Position numbers and translations under genes: made by a program. This document shows positions 28,061-39,361 of a stretch of 39,361 nucleotides of DNA, piece by piece. The notes beneath the pieces were generated by a model, which searched no databases, was not told where the DNA came from, and saw nothing but the letters and a program-made list of their open reading frames with translations. Source of the stretch: Caulobacter sp. HMWF025 (GTDB lineage: Bacteria > Pseudomonadota > Alphaproteobacteria > Caulobacterales > Caulobacteraceae); NCBI RefSeq assembly GCF_003060965.1, contig NZ_QAII01000155.1, positions 15,246 to 54,606 of the forward strand. The letters are read 5' to 3'. The first letter of the stretch is position 1. The number at the start of each line of letters is the position of its first letter.

Positions 28061-29002
28061 TCAGGCCCCCGCCGGGGCGGCGGGGTTGAGCAGGAATTTC
28101 AGTGGGATGGTCAGGCGGCGGTTCCACGACGGCTCGTTATGGTCCGCACCGGGGAAGGCCAGGCTCTCGAACTCCCGGCCCTTGCGATAGCCCTTGGCGG
28201 CAAAGATCGCGTCCACCCGGGCCTGGTACGGCGCATAGTTGGAATCGAGGTTCTGGTCGCCGTGGTCGAAATAGAAGCGGGTGCGCGGCGGTGACGGCAG
28301 GGCCTTGTCCAGATAGGCGGTGATGCCGGCCAGGACGTCAGAGCGCCACTGGTCGCGCGACACGCCGGAGCCTTCGCCGCTGCCCAGCGGCCAGTGGGTG
28401 GAGACACAGCCGACCGCGCCATAGACCTCGGGATAGTTCAGCCCGCCATAGAGCGAGATCAGCCCGCCCATGCTCGAGCCCATCAGGGTCGTGTGCTCGC
28501 GTCCCGGCAGGGTGCGATAGGTCTGGTCGATGAAGGGCTTCAGCTCCTCGACGAGGAACTTCAGATAACCGTCCGATTCCAGCGGTCCACGGGCCTGGGC
28601 CTTCAGCACCGAGCGGGTCGGCTCAGGCACGGCCTCGACCAGGGCTGCGGGGCCGTATTCGATATAGCGCTTGGCGGTGTTCCAGACCCCGACCACCAGG
28701 GTCTGCGGCACCTGGCCCTTGGCGATCAGGTCGGACAGCACCTCGTCGACGCCCCATTCGCCGAACGGCGCGCCGTCCGGATCGAACAGGTTCTGGCCGT
28801 CGTGCATGTAGAGCACGGCATGCGGCGCGCTGCCGGTGTCATAGCCCGGCGGCAGCCAGACCGTGACCCGCCGCGGATCGACATGGGCGGACTTGAAGAC
28901 CGGATACTCGACGACCCGGCCGACCGACACCGCGCGGGCCCGGGCCGTGCCGGCCGTCAGCACCGCGGTGGCGGCGGTGGCGAGAAAGAGACGGCGATCC
29001 AT
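28061..29002 (-). CDS. Tat-exported alpha/beta-hydrolase, esterase D/CE1-like
   Basis: A 313-residue serine hydrolase of the putative esterase (EstD/Fes, CE1-like) family. MDRRLFLATAATAVLTAG is a twin-arginine signal, so it is exported folded. The nucleophile is S177 in GSSMGG; the C-terminal histidine is in FPGADHNEPSW, and an FDHGD segment contributes the acid. VTVWLPPGYD and LYMHDGQNLFD are family features. ATG 29002 shares one base with the malY stop (TGATG), so the two are translationally coupled; a GTG immediately before is the alternative start. It might remove acyl groups from imported glucans, but no substrate is shown by sequence. Confidence 0.87.
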   Translation of the reverse strand: MDRRLFLATAATAVLTAGTARARAVSVGRVVEYPVFKSAHVDPRRVTVWLPPGYDTGSAPHAVLYMHDGQNLFDPDGAPFGEWGVDEVLSDLIAKGQVPQTLVVGVWNTAKRYIEYGPAALVEAVPEPTRSVLKAQARGPLESDGYLKFLVEELKPFIDQTYRTLPGREHTTLMGSSMGGLISLYGGLNYPEVYGAVGCVSTHWPLGSGEGSGVSRDQWRSDVLAGITAYLDKALPSPPRTRFYFDHGDQNLDSNYAPYQARVDAIFAAKGYRKGREFESLAFPGADHNEPSWNRRLTIPLKFLLNPAAPAGA

Positions 29003-30537
29003 CACTCGGCCTTTCCTGCGCTACGACGGGCCGGATCCTCGGGGTCACTGACCGCAAACACGCTGATCGCGGCGATGAAGAAGGCCCCTGCCCCCAGCAC
29101 CAGCGCAAAAATCGCCTGACCGCCGAAGAAGGTCTTCAGCAGCAGGCCCAGCACGGTGGCGGCCAGCAGCTGCGGGATGACGATGAAGAAGTTGAAGATG
29201 CCCATGTAGACGCCCATCTTCCGCGCCGGCAGGGCCCCGGACAGGATCGAATAGGGCACCGACAGGATCGAGCTCCAGGCAAAGCCGACGCCGATCATCG
29301 AGACCCAAAGCAGGGTCGGATCCTTGATGAACGGGAACGACAGCAGGCCCAGCCCGCCGAGCGTCAGGTTGATCGCATGGCTGGCCCGGCGGCCGACGAC
29401 CCTGGCGATCTGCGGGATCAACAGGGCGGCCAGGGCGGCGACGCCGTTATAGACGGCAAACAGCACGCCCACCCAGTCAGCCCCGGCATTGTAGGCGGCC
29501 GAGGTGGCGTCGGTGGAATGATAGTGGAAGGCGGCCACGGCAGGGGTCGTGTAGATCCACATGGCGAACAGGCCAAACCACGAGAAGAACTGGACCACCG
29601 CCAGCTGCTTCATGGTCGAGGGCATGGCGAAGAGGTCCTCGACCACCTCCATGAAGCCGTTGCCGGTGCGGCCGGCGCGCTTGAGCATCGCTGCGACGAG
29701 CTGGCAGACGCCGAAGCCGCCGATCATCGCCGCCAGGACATAGAGTTCCTTTTCCAGCTTCAGGGACACGATCAGGACAGCGGCCAGCACGCCGGTGGCG
29801 GCAAAGGCCACGCCCCAGCTCTGCAGAACCGAGACCGGCCGGTCTGGCTGAACCACGGGAGCCACGTCCGGCCCGAGGGCCGCCAGCCGGGCCGCTTCAA
29901 AGCCCTCGACCTGTTCGGGGCTGTATTCGCGGGTGGTGAACACCGTCCACATCACCGCCAGCAGCAGGCCGGCGGCGCCGGTATAGAAGGCGATCCGCAC
30001 CGCGTCGGGCACGACGCCCGGCGCGGCGGTATTGGCGACATGGAACCAGTTGGTCAGCATCCACGGCAGGGCCGAGGCCAGCACGGCACCGACCCCGATG
30101 AAGAAGGTCTGCATGCCGTAGCCGGTGGTCCGCTGCTCTTCGGGCAGGTTGTCGCCGACAAAGGCGCGGAACGGCTCCATGGTGATGTTGATCGAGGCGT
30201 CCATGATCCACAGCGCGGCGGCGGCGATCCACAGCACCGGCGCATTGGGCATGATCACCAGGGCCAGGCTGGTCAGGATGGCGCCCCAGAAGAAATAGGG
30301 CCTGCGGCGACCCAGCCGCCCCCAGGTCTTGTCGCTGAGATAGCCGATGATCGGCTGGACCAGCAGGCCGGTGGCCGGGGCCGCGATCCACAGGATCGCC
30401 AGGTCGTTCACATCGACGCCCAGGGTCTGGAAGATGCGGCTGGTATTGGCGTTCTGCAGGCCAAAGCCGATCTGGATTCCGAAGAATCCAAAGCACATGT
30501 TCCAGATCTGGAAGAAATTCAGCCGGGCCTTGGTCAT
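29002..30537 (-). CDS. malY: MFS maltose/maltodextrin transporter MalY
   Basis: A 511-residue inner-membrane transporter with about 12 membrane helices, of the SLC45/GPH-like sugar group of the major facilitator superfamily. The loop motif GYLSDKTWGRLGRRRPYFFWG between helices 2 and 3 is typical. In C. crescentus, MalY (CC2283) carries maltose across the cytoplasmic membrane and is repressed by MalI; the same neighbours occur here, which supports the name. ATG 30537 gives the short cytoplasmic lead MTKARLNFFQIWNM; the longer frame upstream is non-coding. It heads the run malY-esterase-glucoamylase. Three phased TTTGCA repeats lie 214 bases upstream of the start. Confidence 0.9.
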   Translation of the reverse strand: MTKARLNFFQIWNMCFGFFGIQIGFGLQNANTSRIFQTLGVDVNDLAILWIAAPATGLLVQPIIGYLSDKTWGRLGRRRPYFFWGAILTSLALVIMPNAPVLWIAAAALWIMDASINITMEPFRAFVGDNLPEEQRTTGYGMQTFFIGVGAVLASALPWMLTNWFHVANTAAPGVVPDAVRIAFYTGAAGLLLAVMWTVFTTREYSPEQVEGFEAARLAALGPDVAPVVQPDRPVSVLQSWGVAFAATGVLAAVLIVSLKLEKELYVLAAMIGGFGVCQLVAAMLKRAGRTGNGFMEVVEDLFAMPSTMKQLAVVQFFSWFGLFAMWIYTTPAVAAFHYHSTDATSAAYNAGADWVGVLFAVYNGVAALAALLIPQIARVVGRRASHAINLTLGGLGLLSFPFIKDPTLLWVSMIGVGFAWSSILSVPYSILSGALPARKMGVYMGIFNFFIVIPQLLAATVLGLLLKTFFGGQAIFALVLGAGAFFIAAISVFAVSDPEDPARRSAGKAE

Positions 30538-30750
30538 CCGCTTCCCCCAATCGCCCGTCGGTTGGCCCGACGATGCGCAAGTTTTTTCATAAGCCTTCAG
30601 AGGCGGCATTTGCGCACGTCGCCGGACACTGCGCAATCCGGATTTCCGGTATTCATAGGGATTTCAGAGCCGATTGATCACGACTTTCAGCGACCTTCAC
30701 CCCTGAAGTGAATCGGCATCCCTCCAGGCGCGGACCCTGGATCCTACAGA

Positions 30751-30776
30751 TTTGCATAAATTTGCAGGTATTTGCA
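30751..30776. promoter_or_regulatory. Candidate MalI operator upstream of malY (three phased TTTGCA)
   Basis: TTTGCA occurs at 30751, 30761 and 30771, exactly one helical turn apart. The first 17 bases, TTTGCATAAATTTGCAG, recur exactly upstream of the GH13 operon at 37648-37664. The site lies in the malY upstream region, just beyond the end of the GH97 gene. Assignment to the LacI-family regulator MalI is inferred from context. Confidence 0.6.
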
Positions 30777-30819
30777 GGACAGCCGCCTCCGGATCTGGCC
30801 GGAGGCGGCACACCCTGCC

Positions 30820-32862
30820 CTACTGCCGCGGCTTGCCCTTGCTGGCCGCCATGAAGCGGATGGCCTGACCGCCGCCGGGGGCCAGTCGCAAGGTCAGGAC
30901 GTCGCTGCTTGTGACCTCGCGTTCCTCAATGACGATGTCCTGCGGGGCCGTCTTCCAGTCCGCCTTGTCGCCATCGCGGTAGATCTGGGCCTTGTAGCGG
31001 CGGCCGGGCTCGAGGAAGCCCAGCGGCGCCGTCAGGACCCGGCCCTCCTCGTCGCTGATCGCGCCCAGGTACCAGTCGTCGCTCTTGCGATCCTTGCGCA
31101 CGATCGTGACGTAGTCGCCGATCTCGCCGTTCAGCACATGCGACTCGGACCAGTCGACGGGCACGTCCTCAATGAACTTGAACGGCTTGGGATTGGCCTC
31201 GTAGTTCTCCAGCAGGTCGGCGGCCATCTGGATCGGGCTGTAGAGGGTTACATACAGCGCCAGTTGCTTGGCCCAGGTGGTGGCCACGCCGTCGGGGGCC
31301 TTGGTCTTCATGCCGAAGATCCCCGGCGTGTAGTCCATCGGCCCGGCCAGCATGCGGGTGAAAATCAGGTTGGCTTCGTGCTCGGGTGGATTGCCGGGCT
31401 GGCCCCAGGCGCTGAACTCCATGCCGCGCGCCCCTTCCCGCGAGATCCAGTTGGGATAGGTGCGACGCAGGCCGGTGTCCTTGATCGGTTCATGGGCATT
31501 GATCGCCACCTGACGCTTGGCGGCCTCGGTCACGACCTTCAGGTGGTGCCGCGCCATGTCCTGGCCCTCGTGCCAGGCGTAGTGGATCTGGCCGTCGGTC
31601 CCCAGCACCTTGGCCTGGCCCGCATCGGCGACATAGCCGGTCTTCACCGCCGACATGCCGAGCGAATGATAGAGATCGAAGGCCGCGCCCATCTGGGTCT
31701 CATAGTGGGCGGCATTGCCCGAGGTCTCGTTGTGCCCGATCAGCGAGACGCCCTTGCTGCGGGCATAGTCGGTGACCTTCTTCAGGTCGAAATCGGGATA
31801 GGGCTTGGTGAAGTCGAAGTCCTGGCCGTTGCCGAACCAGTCGCCGTCCCAGCCCAGGTTCCAGCCCTCGACCAGCACCCCGCCCAGGCCGTGCTTGGCG
31901 GCGAAATCAATGTGCTTGATGGCGTTTTCCGTGGTCGCGCCGTGCTTCTCGCCGGAGGCCCAGGTCTTCTTGTCGAGGTGCATCTCCCACCAGACGCCGA
32001 CATATTTCATCGGCTTGATCCAGGAGACGTCGCCCAGCGCGTTGGGCTCGTTGAGGTTCAGGACGAGGTTGGACTCGACCAGGCCCCCGGCCGTGTCGGC
32101 GATCTGCATCGTCCGCCACGGAGTCGGGAACGGCGCGGTGCGGATCACCTTGGGGCCGCCGATGCCCGGGGTCAGGTTGGCCTTGAAGCGCCGGCCCTCG
32201 ACCCGGGTCAGGTTCATGCCCGAATAGTCGACCAGGGCCGCCTCATGGAAGGCGATGTGCAGGCCGTTGTCGGTGCGCACCGTCATCGGGGTCTGGGCGT
32301 CGCCGACCTCTTCGACGGGCGTGCGATGATAGAGATATTCCTCGCGGTTCCACTCGAAGGCCGGGATCCACCAGACGGTGGCCGGTTCGGCCAGCGAGAA
32401 CTCGGTGAGTTCCTCGCCGATCTTGACCTCTTTCAGATGGGTCTGGTCGGGGAACTCGTAGCGAAAGCCCACGCCGTCGTCATAGACGCGGAACACCACG
32501 TCGAACCGGCGCTGCAGGCCGTTCTTCTCGGCCAGGGTGACGCGCAGTTCGTTGTAGCGATTGCGGATGAACCGGCGCTCGCCATAGGGCTGCTCCCAGG
32601 TCTCGTCGAAGCTGCGGGTCGCCTCGCCGGCCAGCACCAGATTGCGCTCCAGCTTGGGGGCGTCGACCAGGATGAAGCCCAGCCGCGACGGGGCGATCAA
32701 CGGCTTGCCCAGCCGCGCCACGGTATAGCTGGGGCGACCGTCATTGTCGGTGGTGACCTCGACCGACAGCACCTTGTCAGGCGAGGCGATGGTCGCCGTC
32801 GGACCAGCCAGGGCGGGCGCGGCGACCAGCAGGAAGGCCGCGAGCGCTAGACGAAACAACAT
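30820..32862 (-). CDS. Exported GH97 alpha-glucosidase (SusB-like, inverting type)
   Basis: A 680-residue glycoside hydrolase of family 97. Residues 1-19 form a signal peptide (ending PALA), so it is periplasmic. An N-terminal beta-super-sandwich (to about 270) precedes the TIM barrel. The glutamates expected for the inverting SusB type are present: E379 (GHNETSG), E458 (NAHEPIK) and E482 (ARGMEF), with the SusB spacing of 24 between the last two. The family hydrolyses alpha-glucosidic bonds and often needs Ca2+. It is divergent from the LacI-family regulator and ends just before the malY regulatory region. ATG 32862 begins the signal peptide. Confidence 0.93.
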   Translation of the reverse strand: MLFRLALAAFLLVAAPALAGPTATIASPDKVLSVEVTTDNDGRPSYTVARLGKPLIAPSRLGFILVDAPKLERNLVLAGEATRSFDETWEQPYGERRFIRNRYNELRVTLAEKNGLQRRFDVVFRVYDDGVGFRYEFPDQTHLKEVKIGEELTEFSLAEPATVWWIPAFEWNREEYLYHRTPVEEVGDAQTPMTVRTDNGLHIAFHEAALVDYSGMNLTRVEGRRFKANLTPGIGGPKVIRTAPFPTPWRTMQIADTAGGLVESNLVLNLNEPNALGDVSWIKPMKYVGVWWEMHLDKKTWASGEKHGATTENAIKHIDFAAKHGLGGVLVEGWNLGWDGDWFGNGQDFDFTKPYPDFDLKKVTDYARSKGVSLIGHNETSGNAAHYETQMGAAFDLYHSLGMSAVKTGYVADAGQAKVLGTDGQIHYAWHEGQDMARHHLKVVTEAAKRQVAINAHEPIKDTGLRRTYPNWISREGARGMEFSAWGQPGNPPEHEANLIFTRMLAGPMDYTPGIFGMKTKAPDGVATTWAKQLALYVTLYSPIQMAADLLENYEANPKPFKFIEDVPVDWSESHVLNGEIGDYVTIVRKDRKSDDWYLGAISDEEGRVLTAPLGFLEPGRRYKAQIYRDGDKADWKTAPQDIVIEEREVTSSDVLTLRLAPGGGQAIRFMAASKGKPRQ

Positions 32863-32938
32863 GGGGATACTCCGTTCGGTGCGACCGCGCCTGGACTTGC
32901 CAAGCGCTGCCGACGATGCCTTAAGGGGCTTATGAAAA

Positions 32939-32958
32939 CTTTTGCGGCAAATTTTGCA
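32939..32958. promoter_or_regulatory. Candidate operator between GH97 gene and malI
   Basis: Two TTTGC blocks (32941 and 32953) with GCAAA between give overlapping short palindromes, TTTGCGGCAAA and GCAAATTTTGC. The site resembles the TTTGCA elements upstream of malY and malA, but spacing is 12 rather than 10. It lies 18 bases before the malI start, a good position for autoregulation and for control of GH97. Confidence 0.45.
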
Positions 32959-32975
32959 GTCGGGATCGGGCGGTC

Positions 32976-33989
32976 GTGAGCAAGGGCGTTACCCGTCTGG
33001 AAGACCTGGCCAAGATGGCCGGGGTGTCGATCGCCACGGCCTCGCGGGCCCTGAACGACAGTCCGGCCGTCAACAAGCGCACCAAGCAGGCCATCTGGAA
33101 GCTGGCGCGCGAAATGGACTATCCGTTCCGCCGCTACATGCCGGCCGGTCCGATCGGGGCCGAGGCGACCATCGCGATCGTCGTGCCGCGTCCGCAGGGC
33201 CGTGAGGGCCGCCTGTCCGACCCGTTCTTCCTCGAACTGTTCGCCGGTGTCGGTGAAGCCGCCCGCGAGCGGGGCTGCGACGTTCTGGTCAGCCACATCG
33301 CCCCGGCCAATTTCGAAGACCTGTCGGTGGCCATGACCACCAGCCGCGCCGAGGGCGTGATCTTCCTGGGCCAGAGCTCGCTGCACGCCGCCTTCAACCG
33401 CCTGTCGGAAACCGAAGGCCGCTTCGTGGTCTGGGGCGCACAGCTGCCGGACCAGAACTACTGCTCGGTCGGCTCTGACAACCCGCAGGGCGGCCGCCGG
33501 GCGACGCTTCACCTGGCTCGGCTGGGTCGCAAGCGCATCGTGTTCCTGGGCGATACCGAAGCCCCAGAAGCCATGCAGCGGCACCGGGGCTATCTCGATG
33601 CCCTCGAGCACCAGAAGCTGGGGGTCGACCCGGATCTCATCGTTCCGGCGCACTTCGAGGTCGAGTCGGCCGAGGCCTCGATCGACTCGCTGATCCATCG
33701 CGGCGTGAGCTTTGACGGCGTCGTTGCCGCATCCGACCTGATCGCTCTCGGGGCCATCCGCGCCCTCAAGCATGCCGGCCTCAGCGTGCCGGGCGATGTC
33801 TCGGTAGTCGGCTTCGACAATGTCCCCTTCAGCCGCTACAGCAGCCCGGCCCTGAGCACGATTAGCCAGGACACCGCCAAGGCGGGCCGGCTGATGGTCT
33901 CCAAACTGCTGGACGCCAGCGGTGAAAAGGCCAGCCGCTCCGAGCGGGTGCCGACCGATCTGATCATCCGGGAGAGCTGCGGGGGCTAG
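32976..33989 (+). CDS. malI: LacI-family regulator MalI
   Basis: A 337-residue LacI/GalR-type repressor. The N-terminal helix-turn-helix and hinge helix cover residues 6-60 (TRLEDLAKMAGVSIATASRALN). A periplasmic-binding-protein-like sugar-sensing domain follows (about 65-330), with typical EGVIFLG and VVGFDNVPFSRYSSPALSTI. The start is GTG 32976. In C. crescentus MalI (CC2284) represses malA and malY and is relieved by maltose; this gene holds the same place in the same locus. The nearby phased TTTGCA sites are its likely targets. Confidence 0.9.
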   Translation: MSKGVTRLEDLAKMAGVSIATASRALNDSPAVNKRTKQAIWKLAREMDYPFRRYMPAGPIGAEATIAIVVPRPQGREGRLSDPFFLELFAGVGEAARERGCDVLVSHIAPANFEDLSVAMTTSRAEGVIFLGQSSLHAAFNRLSETEGRFVVWGAQLPDQNYCSVGSDNPQGGRRATLHLARLGRKRIVFLGDTEAPEAMQRHRGYLDALEHQKLGVDPDLIVPAHFEVESAEASIDSLIHRGVSFDGVVAASDLIALGAIRALKHAGLSVPGDVSVVGFDNVPFSRYSSPALSTISQDTAKAGRLMVSKLLDASGEKASRSERVPTDLIIRESCGG

Positions 33990-34004
33990 CCCGCCGAAGA
34001 CTCC

Positions 34005-34134
34005 ACGCCCCCCGACGAGAGCCGGGGCCCAGATCGAACCGACGGACACGCTCGAGTCTGGCTGAGGCGGAAGGCGCATCATCCCAAAACGCTCAGGCTG
34101 AATCTGGACCCCGGCTTTCGCCGGGGAGAGCGGG
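34005..34134 (-). repeat. Palindromic intergenic repeat, family B, copy 4
   Basis: Reverse-orientation family B element. The right end is perfect, while the left arm (GCCCCCCGACGAGAGCC...) is degenerate, so this is the most diverged copy. It lies between the converging malI and GH13 genes and may help separate their transcripts. Confidence 0.75.
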
Positions 34135-34158
34135 TTTTGAGAGCCACCGGGATGACAA

Positions 34159-35781
34159 CTAGATCTTCCGCGCCATCAGCCCGCCGCAGGGCGGCACCAC
34201 GCCGTCGTCTGCCAGATTGACGCTTTCGGCGAGGGTCCAGCCGTCCGGCAGCGCCCAGGCCACGGCCTCGTGGCCGAGGTTGAAGGCAAACAGCAGCGCC
34301 TCGCTGCCCTCCCCGCGCTCAAAGATCAGCAGCGGCGTGTTGCTGTCGACGAAGGTCACGTCGCCGGTCCGCAGAACCGGGAACCGGCGGCGCAGGCCGA
34401 TCAGGCGGCGCGCAACAAGCAGGGTCGAGGCCGGGTCGGCTTCCTGGGCATCCACCGCCAGCGGCAGATGGGCCGGATCGACCGGCAGCCAGGGCTCGAC
34501 CGGCGAGAAACCGGCCTGGGGCGCGTTCGCCACCCACGGCATCGGGGTGCGGGCCCCGTCGCGACCCAGGGTCTGGGGCCAGTTGGCGATGGCCTCGGGA
34601 TCCTGCAGCCGCTCGAACGGGACATTGGCCTGGGGCAGGCCCAGTTCCTCGCCCTGATAGACGAAGACATTGCCGCGCAGGGCCACCAGCAGCAGCAGGG
34701 CCATCTCGGCAAAGGCCTTGCGATCCCGGCCCTCGGCCCAGCGCGAGACGGCCCGCGGCGCATCGTGGTTGGAGAAGGTCCACGAGGGCCAACCCTCGCC
34801 GTCCGCCCCGGCCCACATGGCCTGGCCCTGGCGCACCATCTCGCCGGTCAGGTGCTCGGCATAGAGGTAGAGGAAGCCATAGGCGCTGTTGAGGCGGTCC
34901 TCGCCGGCCGTGAACAGCTTCATCTCGCGATCGGCATGATCGCCGCCGACCTCGGCCACCGAGAAGCGGCCACCATGGGCGTCCGTCAGGGCGCGGAGGC
35001 GGCTGAGGAATTTAGGGATGTCCGCATGGCTCTGGTTGTGGATCTTGTCCTGGAAGTCGAACGGCCGCGTCCGCTTGCCGCCGGGCGGCAGGGGCGGATT
35101 GTCGGTCAGGGCCGGGTCGTGCATCGAGAAGTTGATGGCATCGAAGCGGAAGCCCTCGACCCCGCGGTCGATCCAGAACCTGGCCGTAGCCAGAAGCGCA
35201 TCCTGCACGGCCGGCGCATGCACGTTCAGCTGCGGCTGCGAGGCCAGGAAGTTGTGCATGTAGTACTGGCCGCGCCGGGCGTCCCAGGTCCAGGCCGGGC
35301 CGCCGAAAACCGACTGCCAGTTGCTGGGCGGTGAGCCGTCCGGCTTGGCATCGGCCCAGACATACCAGTCGGCATGGGGGTTGGTGCGATCCTGACGGCT
35401 GGCTTCGAACCAGGGATGCTCGTCCGATGTGTGGGAAAACACCTGGTCGATGATGACCTTGACCCCGAGCCCGTGAGCCTTGGCGATCAGCTGATCGAAG
35501 TCGGCCAGGGTGCCGAAGATCGGATCGACATCCAGATAGTCGGAGACGTCGTAGCCGAAGTCCTTCATCGGCGACTTGTAGAACGGCGACAGCCAGATGG
35601 CGTCGACGCCCAGGGACGCGATGTGCTCCAGCCGCGCGGTAATGCCCGGCAGGTCACCGACTCCGTCGCCGTTGGAGTCAGCAAAGCTGCGCGGATAGAC
35701 CTGATAGATCACCGCACCGCGCCACCATTCGGACTCCGCCTGGGACTCCACAGCCGGACGTGAAAGAACCTTGACCGTCAC
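34159..35781 (-). CDS. Cytoplasmic GH13 alpha-glucosidase
   Basis: A 540-residue family 13 enzyme of the alpha-glucosidase/oligo-1,6-glucosidase type (subfamily 23/30-like). It opens with WWRGAVIYQVYPRSFADSNGDGVGDLPGI. Catalytic residues are nucleophile D214 (GFRFDAINF), acid/base E277 (VAEVGGD) and D340 (SNHDAPR). No signal peptide is present, so it should split imported maltose and short dextrins inside the cell. The start is GTG 35781: GAGGGG lies 7 bases upstream, and the start overlaps the stop of the secreted amylase by 4 bases (GTGA); a TTG at 35802 is an alternative but lies inside the amylase gene. The two GH13 genes are translationally coupled. Confidence 0.92.
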   Translation of the reverse strand: MTVKVLSRPAVESQAESEWWRGAVIYQVYPRSFADSNGDGVGDLPGITARLEHIASLGVDAIWLSPFYKSPMKDFGYDVSDYLDVDPIFGTLADFDQLIAKAHGLGVKVIIDQVFSHTSDEHPWFEASRQDRTNPHADWYVWADAKPDGSPPSNWQSVFGGPAWTWDARRGQYYMHNFLASQPQLNVHAPAVQDALLATARFWIDRGVEGFRFDAINFSMHDPALTDNPPLPPGGKRTRPFDFQDKIHNQSHADIPKFLSRLRALTDAHGGRFSVAEVGGDHADREMKLFTAGEDRLNSAYGFLYLYAEHLTGEMVRQGQAMWAGADGEGWPSWTFSNHDAPRAVSRWAEGRDRKAFAEMALLLLVALRGNVFVYQGEELGLPQANVPFERLQDPEAIANWPQTLGRDGARTPMPWVANAPQAGFSPVEPWLPVDPAHLPLAVDAQEADPASTLLVARRLIGLRRRFPVLRTGDVTFVDSNTPLLIFERGEGSEALLFAFNLGHEAVAWALPDGWTLAESVNLADDGVVPPCGGLMARKI

Positions 35782-37592
35782 TGTAGCCCCTCGGAAACGC
35801 AAATCATGTAATCCAGCGGGCCGATCTCGACCCGATAGCTACCGGGAGCCGACGCGGCCCCGGCGCAGGTCCCACGAATCGACCGCCAGGTGCCGGAGGT
35901 CGTTTCGACCTCCACCTGGGCCGCGATCGGCGTGAGCCCGGTATTGAAGACAACCAGATATTCGCGCTGCTCGCCGAGACGCGAAAAGGCCAGCAGGCCA
36001 GGACGCTCGCTCTGGGCCCGCACGACCTGCCGCCCCGAACGAAGCGCCGCGTTGGCTCCGCGGATCCGGGCCATGTCGGCAATGCTCCGGTAAAGGGGTC
36101 CGTCGGTACGATAGTGGTCGCCGTCCGGCGTCCCCTGGACCCCGATCAGCCGGTTGTCCCTATAGCGGGCAACCTGGCTGGCGAACATGTCTTCGCGGCT
36201 GTCGGCATAGTCGCCGTCGCCCGTGAAGCCCTGCTCGTCGCCGTAATAGATCGTCGGCACGCCGCGCGAGAACATCATCAGGGCGTGGCCGAGGGTCATG
36301 CGGCTGAGCAGCTCGCCGTCCGACAGGGCCGGATTGGCCTTGAGCAGGAAATAGCCGAAACGCCCCATGTCGTGATTGCCCAGGAAGGTGGGCAACTGCA
36401 GGGCCGCCGTCGCGCCGCCCTCATAGAGCACGTCACCGGCAAAAACCCGGGCCAGACGATCCGTCCCGGCCTTGCCGGCGATCATGTCGGTCACGGTCGA
36501 CTGGAAGGCAAAGTCGAGCACGGCGGGAAAGCCGTCGACCTTGGTATGTCGGGCCAGGGTGGCGACATCGGTGTCGAACACCTCCCCAAAGATGTGGAAG
36601 TTCTCGATGCCCTTGGCCCGGGCGCGGGCCTGCATGGCCGGGATGAAGGCCTGCCAGAACTCGGGATTGACGTGGCGGGCGGTGTCGATGCGGTAGCCGT
36701 CGATGCCGAAGTCGTCGATCCACTGGCCGTAGATGTCGATGAAGCCCTGCACGACGCGCGGGTTCTCGGTGAAGAGGTCATCGAGTCCGGCGAAATCGCC
36801 CAGCAGCGAGCTTTCACCGGCAAAGGTGCTGTCCCCACGGTTGTGATAAAAGGTCGGGTCGTTCAGCCAGGCGGGCTTCTTGACCGTCTCTTCGCCCGCC
36901 GGAACATAGGGCGAGTAGCTGTGGTCGAAACGGGTCACACGGCCGAAATCCCGTCCATCGAAGGCCGGATTGATCGGCGCGCCGGACAGGCCGCCCCGGC
37001 GTGAATAGGGAAAGTCGGCCTTGGAGCGGTAGCCACAGTCATTGGCCGGGCATTCGCGGTAACGGATCACGTCGGCTGTGTGGTTGGCGACGATGTCCAG
37101 ATAGACCTTCATCCCGCGTGCATGGGCCGAATCGACGAAGGTCTTGAACTCGGCACGCGTTCCAAAGTGCGGATCGACGTCGGTGAAGTCGGTGATCCAG
37201 TAGCCGTGATGGGCGGCCGACTCATGGCCCGGCGCGCCCTGCACCGCTTTGTTGCGGAAGATCGGGCCCACCCAGATCGCTGTTGCCCCCAGCCCCTGGA
37301 TGTAGTCCAGCCGCTCGGTGAGGCCCTTCAGGTCACCGCCGTGATAGAATCCGGCGTGGGTCGGATCAAAGCCCGTCTCGAGCCGTCCGCCCTTGAGTCC
37401 CCCGCGATCATTGGTCGCGTCGCCGTTGGCGAACCGATCCGGCAGAACGAAGTAAATGACCTCGTCGCGGGCCTGGCGCAGCCGGAATGATGCGTCAGCC
37501 CCGTCAGCGAGGGCCTTGCCGCTCACTGCGGCCAGCACACCGAAGGCCGTCATGGCCATCAGCGCCCGCTTCCAGGAGACCCTGGCTGACAT
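35778..37592 (-). CDS. Exported GH13 alpha-amylase family enzyme
   Basis: A 604-residue family 13 glucanohydrolase with a signal peptide (residues 1-29, ending GKALA). Conserved regions are in order: VYLDIVANHTAD (region I), GYRIDTARH with nucleophile D303, IFGEVFD with acid/base E337, and FLGNHDMGR with D408. A C-terminal beta domain (about 500-604) follows. The substrate is probably maltodextrin or starch fragments in the periplasm or at the cell surface; cyclomaltodextrinase-like activity is possible. ATG 37592 starts the signal peptide. It is divergent from malA, and a phased TTTGCA operator lies about 55-72 bases upstream. Confidence 0.92.
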   Translation of the reverse strand: MSARVSWKRALMAMTAFGVLAAVSGKALADGADASFRLRQARDEVIYFVLPDRFANGDATNDRGGLKGGRLETGFDPTHAGFYHGGDLKGLTERLDYIQGLGATAIWVGPIFRNKAVQGAPGHESAAHHGYWITDFTDVDPHFGTRAEFKTFVDSAHARGMKVYLDIVANHTADVIRYRECPANDCGYRSKADFPYSRRGGLSGAPINPAFDGRDFGRVTRFDHSYSPYVPAGEETVKKPAWLNDPTFYHNRGDSTFAGESSLLGDFAGLDDLFTENPRVVQGFIDIYGQWIDDFGIDGYRIDTARHVNPEFWQAFIPAMQARARAKGIENFHIFGEVFDTDVATLARHTKVDGFPAVLDFAFQSTVTDMIAGKAGTDRLARVFAGDVLYEGGATAALQLPTFLGNHDMGRFGYFLLKANPALSDGELLSRMTLGHALMMFSRGVPTIYYGDEQGFTGDGDYADSREDMFASQVARYRDNRLIGVQGTPDGDHYRTDGPLYRSIADMARIRGANAALRSGRQVVRAQSERPGLLAFSRLGEQREYLVVFNTGLTPIAAQVEVETTSGTWRSIRGTCAGAASAPGSYRVEIGPLDYMICVSEGLQ

Positions 37593-37638
37593 CGCTTCCC
37601 CCCTGCAGGTCGCCCGGCCCGATGACCCGGTCGCCACA

Positions 37639-37664
37639 CTGCAATAATTTGCATAAATTTGCAG
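37639..37664. promoter_or_regulatory. Candidate MalI operator upstream of the GH13 operon
   Basis: CTGCAA at 37639 and TTGCAG at 37659 are inverted ends of a 26-base site. TGCA cores within it repeat every 10 bases. Its 17-base core, TTTGCATAAATTTGCAG (37648-37664), is identical to the site upstream of malY. It starts 47 bases upstream of the amylase ATG and would overlap its promoter. Confidence 0.65.
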
Positions 37665-37812
37665 CCGCTTTCCCACGGCGTCAATCACGAAATCAGATCG
37701 ATTCTCCGCCGACCCCTCGCAAACCCAACCCCTATATGGGGGAAATGGGCAACATACCCCCTGTCAGGACGCACTTTTCGACCCGTCAGGAATGTCTCGC
37801 GACATTTTCCTG

Positions 37813-37846
37813 TTGATTGCTGCGCATTAATTTGCAGTAATTTGCG
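37813..37846 (+). promoter_or_regulatory. Candidate malA promoter with overlapping operator
   Basis: TTGATT (37813-37818) and AGTAAT (37836-37841) have 17-base spacing and could be -35 and -10 elements. The phased repeat TGCGCATTAA TTTGCAGTAA TTTGCG covers 37821-37846, overlapping the spacer and -10, which suits repression. The promoter call is weak; the repeat is clear. Confidence 0.45.
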
Positions 37847-37902
37847 TATCGGCTCCGATCGCAGCGTCAGAAACGCACAGAGCCGGACAGGGAGGGTGAG
37901 AC

Positions 37903-39361
37903 ATGGACTTCAGACTTCAACACCGCCGTGCGCGGTTGATGGGCGGCGCGGCGACCAGCCTCGCGCTCATGTTTGCCTCGGCCGGCATGGCCCAGGCCCA
38001 GGAAACGACGACCAAGCCGGCAGACGACAACACCGCCGTTGAGGAAATCGTCGTGACCGGCATTCGCGCCGGTATCGAAAACTCGATCGCCTTGAAAAAG
38101 ACGTCGACCTCGATCGTCGAAGCCATCTCGGCTGAAGACATCGGCAAGCTGCCCGACACCTCGATCGCCGAGTCGCTGGCCCGCCTGCCCGGCCTGACCG
38201 CGCAGCGCCTTGACGGCCGCGCCCAGGTCATCTCGATCCGCGGCCTCGGCCCGGACTTCACGACGACCCTGCTGAACGGCCGCGAACAGGTTTCGACCGG
38301 CGACAACCGCGGCGTCGAGTTCGACCAGTATCCTTCGGAAATCCTGTCGGGCGTTGTGGTCTACAAGACCCCGGACGCTGGCCTGATCGGTCAGGGCCTC
38401 TCGGGCACCGCCGACCTGCAGACGATCCGTCCGCTGAAGTACGGCAAGCGCATCCTGTCGGCCAATGCTCGCTATGAAATGAACAGCGAGAAGAAGCTGA
38501 ACCCGGACGCCAAGGACACGGGCCACCGCTTCAGCGCCACCTACGTCAACCAGTTCGCGGATGACACCGTGGGCGTCGCCCTGGCCGTGTCGGACATCTC
38601 GACCCCGACCCAGAGCCGCCGCTTCAACGCCTGGGGCTATCCGACCATCAACTCGGCCAATGATCGCGTGATCGGCGGCGCCAAGCCCTACGTGCAGTCC
38701 AACAACCTCGAGCGTTTCGGCGTCATCGGCGTTCTGGAATACAAGCCCAACGACAAGCTGACCTCGTCGCTGGACATGTACTATTCGGAGTTCGCCGAAG
38801 AGCAGATCCTGCGCGGCATCGAACTGCCCCTGCAGTGGTCGGCAGCTTCGCTGCAGCCTACCCGCACCACGGAAGCCGGCCTGATCACCAAGGGCACCTT
38901 CACGGGCGTCAAGGGCGTGATGCGGAACGACCTGAACACCCGCGACACCACCCTGAAATCGGCCGGCTGGAACCTGAACTACCTGACCGACAACGGCTGG
39001 TCGCTGACGACCGACCTGAGCTACTCCTCGGCCGATCGTACGGACGTGATCTTTGAATCCTATTCGGGCACCGGCCCGAACGGCGTCGGCGCAACCGACA
39101 CCCTGGGCTTCACGACCACGCCGGGCGCCGGCACGGTGTTCAGCTCGAGCCTCGACTATACCGACCGCAACCTGTTCAAGCTGACCGACCCGCAGGGTTG
39201 GGGTGGCGGCGCCTCCGGCGGCGCTCTGACCCAGGCCGGCTTCTACAACACTCCGTCGATCACCGACGAACTCAAGGCCGCCCGGTTCACCGCCGAGCAT
39301 GACCTGGACTTCGGCCCGATCAGCCACGTCGAGGTTGGCTTCAACACCAGCCGTCGCGAAA
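37903..39361 (+). CDS. malA: TonB-dependent maltodextrin receptor MalA (5' part, cut by window end)
   Basis: 486 codons of an outer-membrane TonB-dependent receptor are present, with no stop before the window edge. A signal peptide ends near residue 32 (AGMAQAQ). The TonB box is EEIVVTG (47-53), close to the EEVVIT reported for C. crescentus MalA (CC2287). The plug domain follows (about 60-180: IVEAISAEDIGKLPDTSIAESLARLPGLTAQR, ISIRGLG, LLNGRE, VVVYKTPDA), then the beginning of the beta-barrel. It would actively import maltodextrins, energised by TonB-ExbBD. ATG 37903 follows GGAGGG. Divergent from the GH13 operon; control by MalI is inferred from the operator. Confidence 0.92.
   Translation, partial: MDFRLQHRRARLMGGAATSLALMFASAGMAQAQETTTKPADDNTAVEEIVVTGIRAGIENSIALKKTSTSIVEAISAEDIGKLPDTSIAESLARLPGLTAQRLDGRAQVISIRGLGPDFTTTLLNGREQVSTGDNRGVEFDQYPSEILSGVVVYKTPDAGLIGQGLSGTADLQTIRPLKYGKRILSANARYEMNSEKKLNPDAKDTGHRFSATYVNQFADDTVGVALAVSDISTPTQSRRFNAWGYPTINSANDRVIGGAKPYVQSNNLERFGVIGVLEYKPNDKLTSSLDMYYSEFAEEQILRGIELPLQWSAASLQPTRTTEAGLITKGTFTGVKGVMRNDLNTRDTTLKSAGWNLNYLTDNGWSLTTDLSYSSADRTDVIFESYSGTGPNGVGATDTLGFTTTPGAGTVFSSSLDYTDRNLFKLTDPQGWGGGASGGALTQAGFYNTPSITDELKAARFTAEHDLDFGPISHVEVGFNTSRRE

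Follow-up and report, generated by a model that had tools for sequence, protein, structure and literature searches.

The right end of a 39,361-nucleotide stretch of DNA from Caulobacter sp. HMWF025 (contig NZ_QAII01000155.1, positions 15,246 to 54,606; hereafter the window) carries a maltodextrin locus of the Caulobacter type, in which malY, a GH97 gene, malI, two GH13 genes and malA were recognised with Pfam. The gene cluster is of the same kind as that of the MalA/MalY/MalI maltodextrin system of C. crescentus, in which, according to passages of PMC3917699, MalA is maltose-induced and the mal gene cluster is listed as cc2282-cc2287. Repeated TTTGCA-type cores lie upstream of these genes and are probably the operators of MalI, a regulator with a LacI domain (Pfam, 42.2 bits for a cut-off of 27) and a Peripla_BP_3 domain (117.1 bits) that matches LacI, PurR and CcpA in the PDB by sequence and by fold. 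The genes and the putative regulatory elements are listed in Table 1.

Table 1 Genes and putative regulatory elements of the maltodextrin locus, with positions in the window.
Feature	Position	Strand	Remarks
malY, MFS-type inner-membrane sugar transporter	29002..30537	-	Pfam MFS_1, E=1.3e-23
Promoter-proximal malY operator TGAAAAAACTTGCG	30576..30589	-	Own-genome scan, 1 mismatch to TGMAAANNTTTGCR
malY distal array TTTGCATAAATTTGCAGGTATTTGCA	30751..30776	-	Three exact TTTGCA cores, 10 apart
GH97 alpha-glucosidase	30820..32862	-	Pfam Glyco_hydro_97, E=2.6e-105
malI operator TGAAAACTTTTGCG	32933..32946	+	10-base core spacing; lies between malI and the divergent GH97 gene; exact TGMAAANNTTTGCR match
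Second malI element TTTGCGGCAAATTTTGCA	32941..32958	+	Cores 12 apart; spacing conserved among relatives
malI, LacI-family regulator	32976..33989	+	Pfam LacI, Peripla_BP_3; no canonical hinge motif (A-x-x-L), Pro at Y+7
GH13b, alpha-glucosidase/amylase family	34159..35802	-	Pfam Alpha-amylase, E=1.9e-111
GH13a, alpha-amylase family, leads the GH13 operon	35778..37592	-	Pfam Alpha-amylase, E=5e-63
GH13a operator array ACTGCAATAATTTGCATAAATTTGCAG	37638..37664	-	Three cores 10 apart; first core CTGCAA, not TTTGCA
GH13a -35 element TTGACG (probable)	37679..37684	-	14-15 bases from operator
malA operator array TGCGCATTAATTTGCAGTAATTTGCG	37821..37846	+	Two conserved cores and a weak CGCA first core
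malA, TonB-dependent receptor	37903..39361	+	Pfam Plug, E=1.8e-17; continues past the window end

All the repeats listed in a preliminary description of this DNA were found in the window. It had reported TTTGCA-type cores at steps of 10 bases in the malY, GH13a and malA arrays; the spacing holds in all three, with the exact TTTGCA present in 6 of the 9 cores, and in the malA array the middle core alone is exact. The 17-mer TTTGCATAAATTTGCAG is indeed identical at 30751-30767 and 37648-37664, and the core pair near malI has the 12-base spacing noted before. The placement of the malY array had to be corrected, as it lies between the GH97 stop codon and malY, where its sites precede the malY start by approximately 222 and 232 bases. 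Two sites had been overlooked and are added here, the promoter-proximal malY operator and the 10-spaced malI operator. At the former position (-46 to -49 relative to malY) a site of at least 10/12 is found in 15 of 18 Caulobacter relatives, the remaining three sharing the window sequence, and the latter is matched in most Caulobacter relatives and in both loci of the neighbour genus g4. The distal triple array before malY seems to be expanded in this strain; relatives hold a partial version there, such as TTCTCATAAATTTGCA (partial versions in L081, L087, L088, L090-L092 and L095).

The repeats are specific to the mal locus in their paired and tripled forms. In the window, the single TTTGCA is not enriched (10 observed for 7.9 expected), and the 10-spaced pair with up to 2 mismatches occurs 7 times for 0.67 expected, a number reached by 0 of 100 shuffles. 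In the whole genome (3,960,983 bases, 176 contigs), the pair TTTGCANNNATTTGCA is exact at three places, every one in the mal locus, and with up to 2 mismatches it is found at 21 places, 6 of them in the mal locus, the reversed control giving 7 places. When 1 mismatch is allowed, the triple array is found at two places, which are both in the mal locus, and its reversed control at none. The concern that the motif might be frequent away from sugar genes is answered by these counts, exact pairs and triples being found at 0 places elsewhere in this genome. A perfect CG-centred palindrome, TGCAAACGTTTGCA, is present on another contig (G000:C36:8281-8294, L004); it looks like the site of a canonical LacI-family protein and is unlike the MalI sites.

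The comparison was extended to 149 genomes of the family, of which 55 encode a MalI orthologue (E <= 1e-120, 56-100% identity). The exact pair is present in 32 of the 149 genomes and its reversed pattern in 1; all 32 motif genomes possess the orthologue and the pair is found in 0 of the 94 genomes without it (Fisher p = 5e-18, shared ancestry left uncorrected). These genomes hold 47 exact-pattern places. Of these, 39 share a contig with malI and are no more than about 11 kb away from it; another two are found on either side of the unlinked malA of G091, and one is in the stretch that precedes an alpha-amylase-domain open reading frame (ORF) on another contig (G058), at an uncertain distance from the true start. 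In G054 a site stands beside a glucodextranase-domain gene, and from their neighbours the G054 and G058 sites would fit the same regulon. We then scanned 55 loci, the window and up to 20 kb around the 54 other orthologues (shorter at contig ends), for TGCAAANNTTTGCA at a minimum of 10/12. Upstream regions of mal genes, which make up 42,759 of the 1,035,092 bases (4.1%), contain 174 of the 182 hits, and the motif is conserved before the malA, malY and GH13 orthologues. Moreover, in G091, G003 and G025 malA is on a contig other than that of malI with both flanking operators retained; these are drafts with unordered contigs, but in G091 and G025 malI is more than 100 kb from the nearest contig end. 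The suggestion of the preliminary description that MalI is the binder is well supported, though by inference. Three of the eight hits outside the mal upstream regions are TGTAAACGTTTACA, a CG-centred palindrome that probably belongs to another regulator. It sits approximately 1.25 kb upstream of malI in the g15 loci L125, L126 and L127, in each of which another LacI-family gene is present still further upstream.

MalI was also sought beyond the family, in 385 genomes sampled from the class; 3 gave a match at 1e-100 and two of these are Caulobacteraceae, so that lineage-independent tests are few. Sphingomonas oleivorans (L216) has a MalI that is 80% identical; a GH13 gene is its neighbour and the composite operator before malI is retained, which suggests that the regulon was transferred horizontally or that the record is contaminated. 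The closest named MalI found is that of the metagenome-assembled genome Caulobacter sp. 32-67-35, with 95% identity. Among the genes of the locus, malY is matched in 37 of the 55 loci (window counted), and the start codon of GH13a is our choice in a frame open from 37592. In L110 the GH97 gene matches as two separate pieces about 0.2-2.2 kb upstream of malI and may be broken or frameshifted. A description of Caulobacter MalI operators was not found in the literature searched, two key subscription papers and RegPrecise being beyond reach, and an earlier prediction is possible.

The sequences TGCA and TTGCAA are their own reverse complements. As TGCA is self-complementary, cores placed 10 bases apart are at the same time a direct repeat and an inverted repeat, and form a 14-bp LacI-type element with TGCAAA-NN-TTTGCA as its ideal form. 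The previous reading of three direct repeats, set against the single palindrome usual for the family, cannot be kept as written, since a 10-spaced pair is also an inverted repeat; what stands is an asymmetry of the flanks at GH13a. The 19 distinct GH13a sites of Caulobacter have TT before the left core in 11 cases and AA after it in 0, while AA after the left core is found in 16 of 22 malI sites and 8 of 9 proximal malY sites; the GH13a class labels, like the count of GH13a -35 elements given below, rest on approximate GH13a gene positions. The malI and malY sites are mostly inverted-like and flank orientation differs by site class. Plain direct repeats as a general rule are rejected on account of the self-complementarity of TGCA together with the mostly inverted flanks at malI and malY, and the direct-like look is retained as a flank asymmetry at malA and GH13a.

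The distances between cores in the mal upstream regions are sharply distributed, with 98 pairs at 10 bases (0.3 expected), 27 at 12 (0.45 expected) and 43 at 20 (0.3 expected), and at most 2 each at 9, 11 or 13. Core-like -35 elements inflate the peak at 19-20 bases, and the peaks at 10 and 12 are independent of them. The 35 loci of Caulobacter, g4 and Brevundimonas type have a spacing of 12 at malI in 33 cases and of 13 in the two g4 loci, and the 12-spaced element is absent in the other 20 of the 55 loci; that the 12-base pair is a degenerate copy is excluded by the spacing kept in those 33 loci. The number of cores is less constant. With a strict core defined as TTGCA or TGCAA, three or more in a row are found at GH13a in 10 of 19 Caulobacter loci, at malA in g15 as 13 runs in 12 of 18 loci, and at malY in two g4 loci besides the window; the 14 Brevundimonas-type loci have none. 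What is conserved is a unit of two cores: the strict third core varies with the lineage, which means that a three-point contact is not the conserved requirement.

The position of the operators relative to the promoters was then considered. In all 25 loci examined, of the 32 that carry the gene, 14-15 bases separate the start of the GH13a operator from an upstream TTGACA (24 loci) or TTGACG (window), and at this distance past the -35 element the operator would cover the likely place of the -10 element. The malY and malI operators are just downstream of a conserved promoter-like sequence. Roughly, the promoter-proximal operators have their centres about 30-90 bases upstream of the malY, malI, GH13a and malA start codons, the GH13a positions being approximate, and according to excerpts of PMC4052901 more than 75% of LacI-family sites are 30-140 bases upstream. 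This placement fits repression by occlusion, without proving it. The putative malA -35 element is often TTGCAA (in Brevundimonas-type and some Caulobacter loci), located 19-20 bases from the first operator core (L101-L115 and several Caulobacter loci), and the letters of promoter and operator seem to overlap in use before malA. The distances between the GH13a and malA operators, read by eye, range from about 154 to 187 bases, without tight phasing; a simpler reason for the two sites than DNA looping would be that each operator stands at its own promoter.

The hinge of MalI was compared with that of its relatives, residues being counted from the conserved tyrosine (Y). All 55 MalI orthologues have G, S, P or A at the position of LacI Leu56, and all 55 have a Pro two residues before it (Y+7). 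In the HMWF025 genome, the other LacI-family proteins retain both the hinge Ala and the hinge Leu in 7 of 7 cases. MalI does not have the hinge motif A-x-x-L and on this sequence comparison is an exception inside the LacI family, not a protein excluded from it. On the DNA side, a central CG is found in 1 of the 174 MalI-type operator sites. In canonical members the hinge Leu inserts into the central CG, with rare exceptions (Camas et al., PMC2978694, in part), and in the parts of Ravcheev et al. (PMC4052901) dealing with this feature, 1173 of the 1251 factors with even palindromes have sites centred on CG. An AlphaFold model of MalI (mean predicted local distance difference test score, pLDDT, 66.4) shows residues 47-63 without helix and residues 51-62 below 50, which agrees with a missing hinge helix but, from a weak model run without a control protein, carries little weight. 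It looks as if MalI has lost the hinge helix with which its relatives grip the centre of the site, and this loss looks coupled with that of the CG. We regard the parallel loss of hinge Leu and central CG as the most interesting result.

Taken together, the TTTGCA repeats are likely to be operators of the repressor MalI, with half-sites that are shared and stacked, a reading of the DNA by the helix-turn-helix (HTH) domains only and extra half-sites adding avidity, in a manner somewhat resembling that of CytR. The unit bound would be the 14-bp element with two TGCA-centred half-sites 10 apart; a MalI dimer bound at the malY, malI/GH97, GH13a and malA promoters would block RNA polymerase and a maltodextrin-derived inducer would release it. 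As MalI has no hinge Leu and its operators no CG, it probably reads DNA by its HTH domains alone, on flexible linkers. Such a protein would tolerate half-sites in direct-like or inverted-like orientation, 10 or 12 bases apart, and the extra in-phase half-sites gained in some lineages may offer alternative registers and avidity. From what can be read directly, namely the sites, their spacing and conservation, the missing CG and the missing hinge motif, we infer that MalI is the binder, that it represses, and that the loss of the hinge is tied to the array form. A further proposal is possible but more tentative: MalI may represent a natural LacI-family lineage without the minor-groove hinge lever and the central CG, reading in-phase chains of self-complementary half-sites that are shared by adjacent registers. 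If so, regulation would be tuned by the number of half-sites and the 10- or 12-base spacing, not by the operator sequence, and perhaps without a CRP partner of the CytR type.

Several observations weigh against this explanation. Across the whole genome, the 14-base pattern TGMAAANNTTTGCR shows no enrichment when 1 mismatch is allowed (23 rows, of which 8 rows at 5 places fall in the mal locus, for 17 with the reversed control), and specificity is limited to triples and to pairs of the TTTGCA form; as single-core counts and the lone degenerate 14-mer are near chance, neither was used as evidence alone. Five of the 47 exact places in the family have no known tie to sugar genes (three were inspected, with G085:C4 and G052:C20 left out; L053 and L058, which were inspected, are the mal-locus places of the genomes holding these two). 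Off the locus, exact places are found near a peroxidase-domain ORF (G145), beside an ORF that gave no Pfam match when tested (G119) and at G003:C96, where no gene was recognised; the five were treated as unrelated or unknown. Few g15 loci (2 of 18) have a near-consensus site before malI, the malI composite is absent in the 18 g15 loci and in both g21 loci, and G322, with a MalI 66% identical and of the same hinge type, has no site of at least 10/12 in 20 kb. The Ala53 equivalent (Y+6) is retained in 6 of the 55 MalI proteins. Moreover, malA is absent in 17 of 17 checked MalI-negative genomes (picked from 86 without a MalI match at 1e-60), and the motif is found together with both malI and malA so regularly that its distribution does not point to MalI in particular.

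Binding by some other regulator, such as an activator reading direct repeats, would agree with this last point, as an unlinked factor is compatible with the co-occurrence, and the T-tract before each core lends many malA and GH13a pairs a direct-like look. We consider it distinctly improbable: MalI is the sole regulator among the seven ORFs scanned (28061-39361) and its own promoter carries a conserved site, the spacing agrees with LacI-family geometry, and sites over or just downstream of promoter-like sequence suit a repressor. The T-tracts repeated every 10 bases within GC-rich DNA could also be phased A/T tracts that bend the DNA or serve as promoter elements and not as protein operators, but the conserved letters are TGCA and not the tracts, and the motif tracks the MalI-bearing genomes, which makes this a very remote alternative. 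Of the readings that keep a LacI-type site, one is a plain operator in which the extra cores and the missing CG are functionally meaningless and due to neutral drift. The third cores do differ between lineages, and excerpts of Ravcheev et al. (PMC4052901) count 49 LacI-family factors with a different centre and 29 with a degenerate one; however, drift would not be expected to leave the extra cores exactly 10 bases apart, with so few pairs at 9, 11 and 13, and the joint occurrence of non-CG centres in 173 of 174 sites and hinge Leu loss in all orthologues looks coupled. We hold this reading to be rather doubtful.

The preliminary description had raised the idea of cooperative binding. In a reading of this kind, three in-phase half-sites are a required platform on which two dimers, or a larger oligomer, assemble next to each other along the same helix face. 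In its favour there are 26 runs of at least three strict cores at exactly 10 bases in the 55 loci, compared to none in 20 rounds of random sequence; runs of four cores are found in 3 g15 loci, and triple arrays recur at GH13a in the Caulobacter loci counted above. Nevertheless two strict cores suffice in the Brevundimonas-type loci and in 7 of 17 Caulobacter GH13a runs, and dimers offset by 10 bases would share a half-site. The inter-site peaks given for LacI-family sites in parts of Ravcheev et al. (PMC4052901) are at 13, 22 and 32, and overlapping dimers are noted there to be hard to square with structures. A required cooperative platform is therefore unlikely, and MalI dimers on two-core units, with additional cores as a source of avidity, remain the preferred explanation.

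Compared with the operators of canonical LacI-family proteins such as PurR, GalR and CcpA, the MalI sites are alike in being even inverted repeats whose half-sites are about 10 apart, and in lying near the promoter and beside the regulator gene. The spacing GCAA-N4-TTGC is that of PurR sites. The canonical operators differ by their central CG, whereas the MalI sites almost always lack it, form stacked arrays sharing half-sites and are served by a regulator without the hinge Leu. For CytR of gamma-proteobacteria, the relaxed spacing was reportedly ascribed by Jorgensen in 1998 to a flexible unstructured linker. CytR has TTGCA-type half-sites, direct and inverted and at variable spacing (PMC3454398, in part), and the same is seen at the MalI sites, where both orientations occur, with 10-base pairs at the targets and a 12-base pair at malI. 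In contrast to CytR, which acts with CRP on weak and degenerate sites, the MalI-type sites are mostly 10- or 12-spaced and their pairs are near consensus. Overlapping LacI-family sites about 13 bp apart, for example those of GntR at gntKU, are reported for 110 operons in excerpts of PMC4052901, and the malI composite belongs with these, its centres being about 12-13 apart. The malA, GH13a and malY arrays overlap at 10 and share whole half-sites, and 10 is not among the peaks given in those excerpts.

The repeats are real and conserved, and are most likely the MalI operator set. They are of an ordinary kind, and what sets them apart is the form of the arrays and that hinge Leu and CG have been lost in concert. 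It provides a concrete predicted set of operators for maltodextrin uptake in Caulobacter and Brevundimonas. That LacI-family proteins need the hinge helix and the central CG is a structural rule seldom broken, as stated in passages of PMC2978694; here both features seem to be absent at once throughout an orthologous group, and the arrays stand at native promoters, open to base-by-base mutation.

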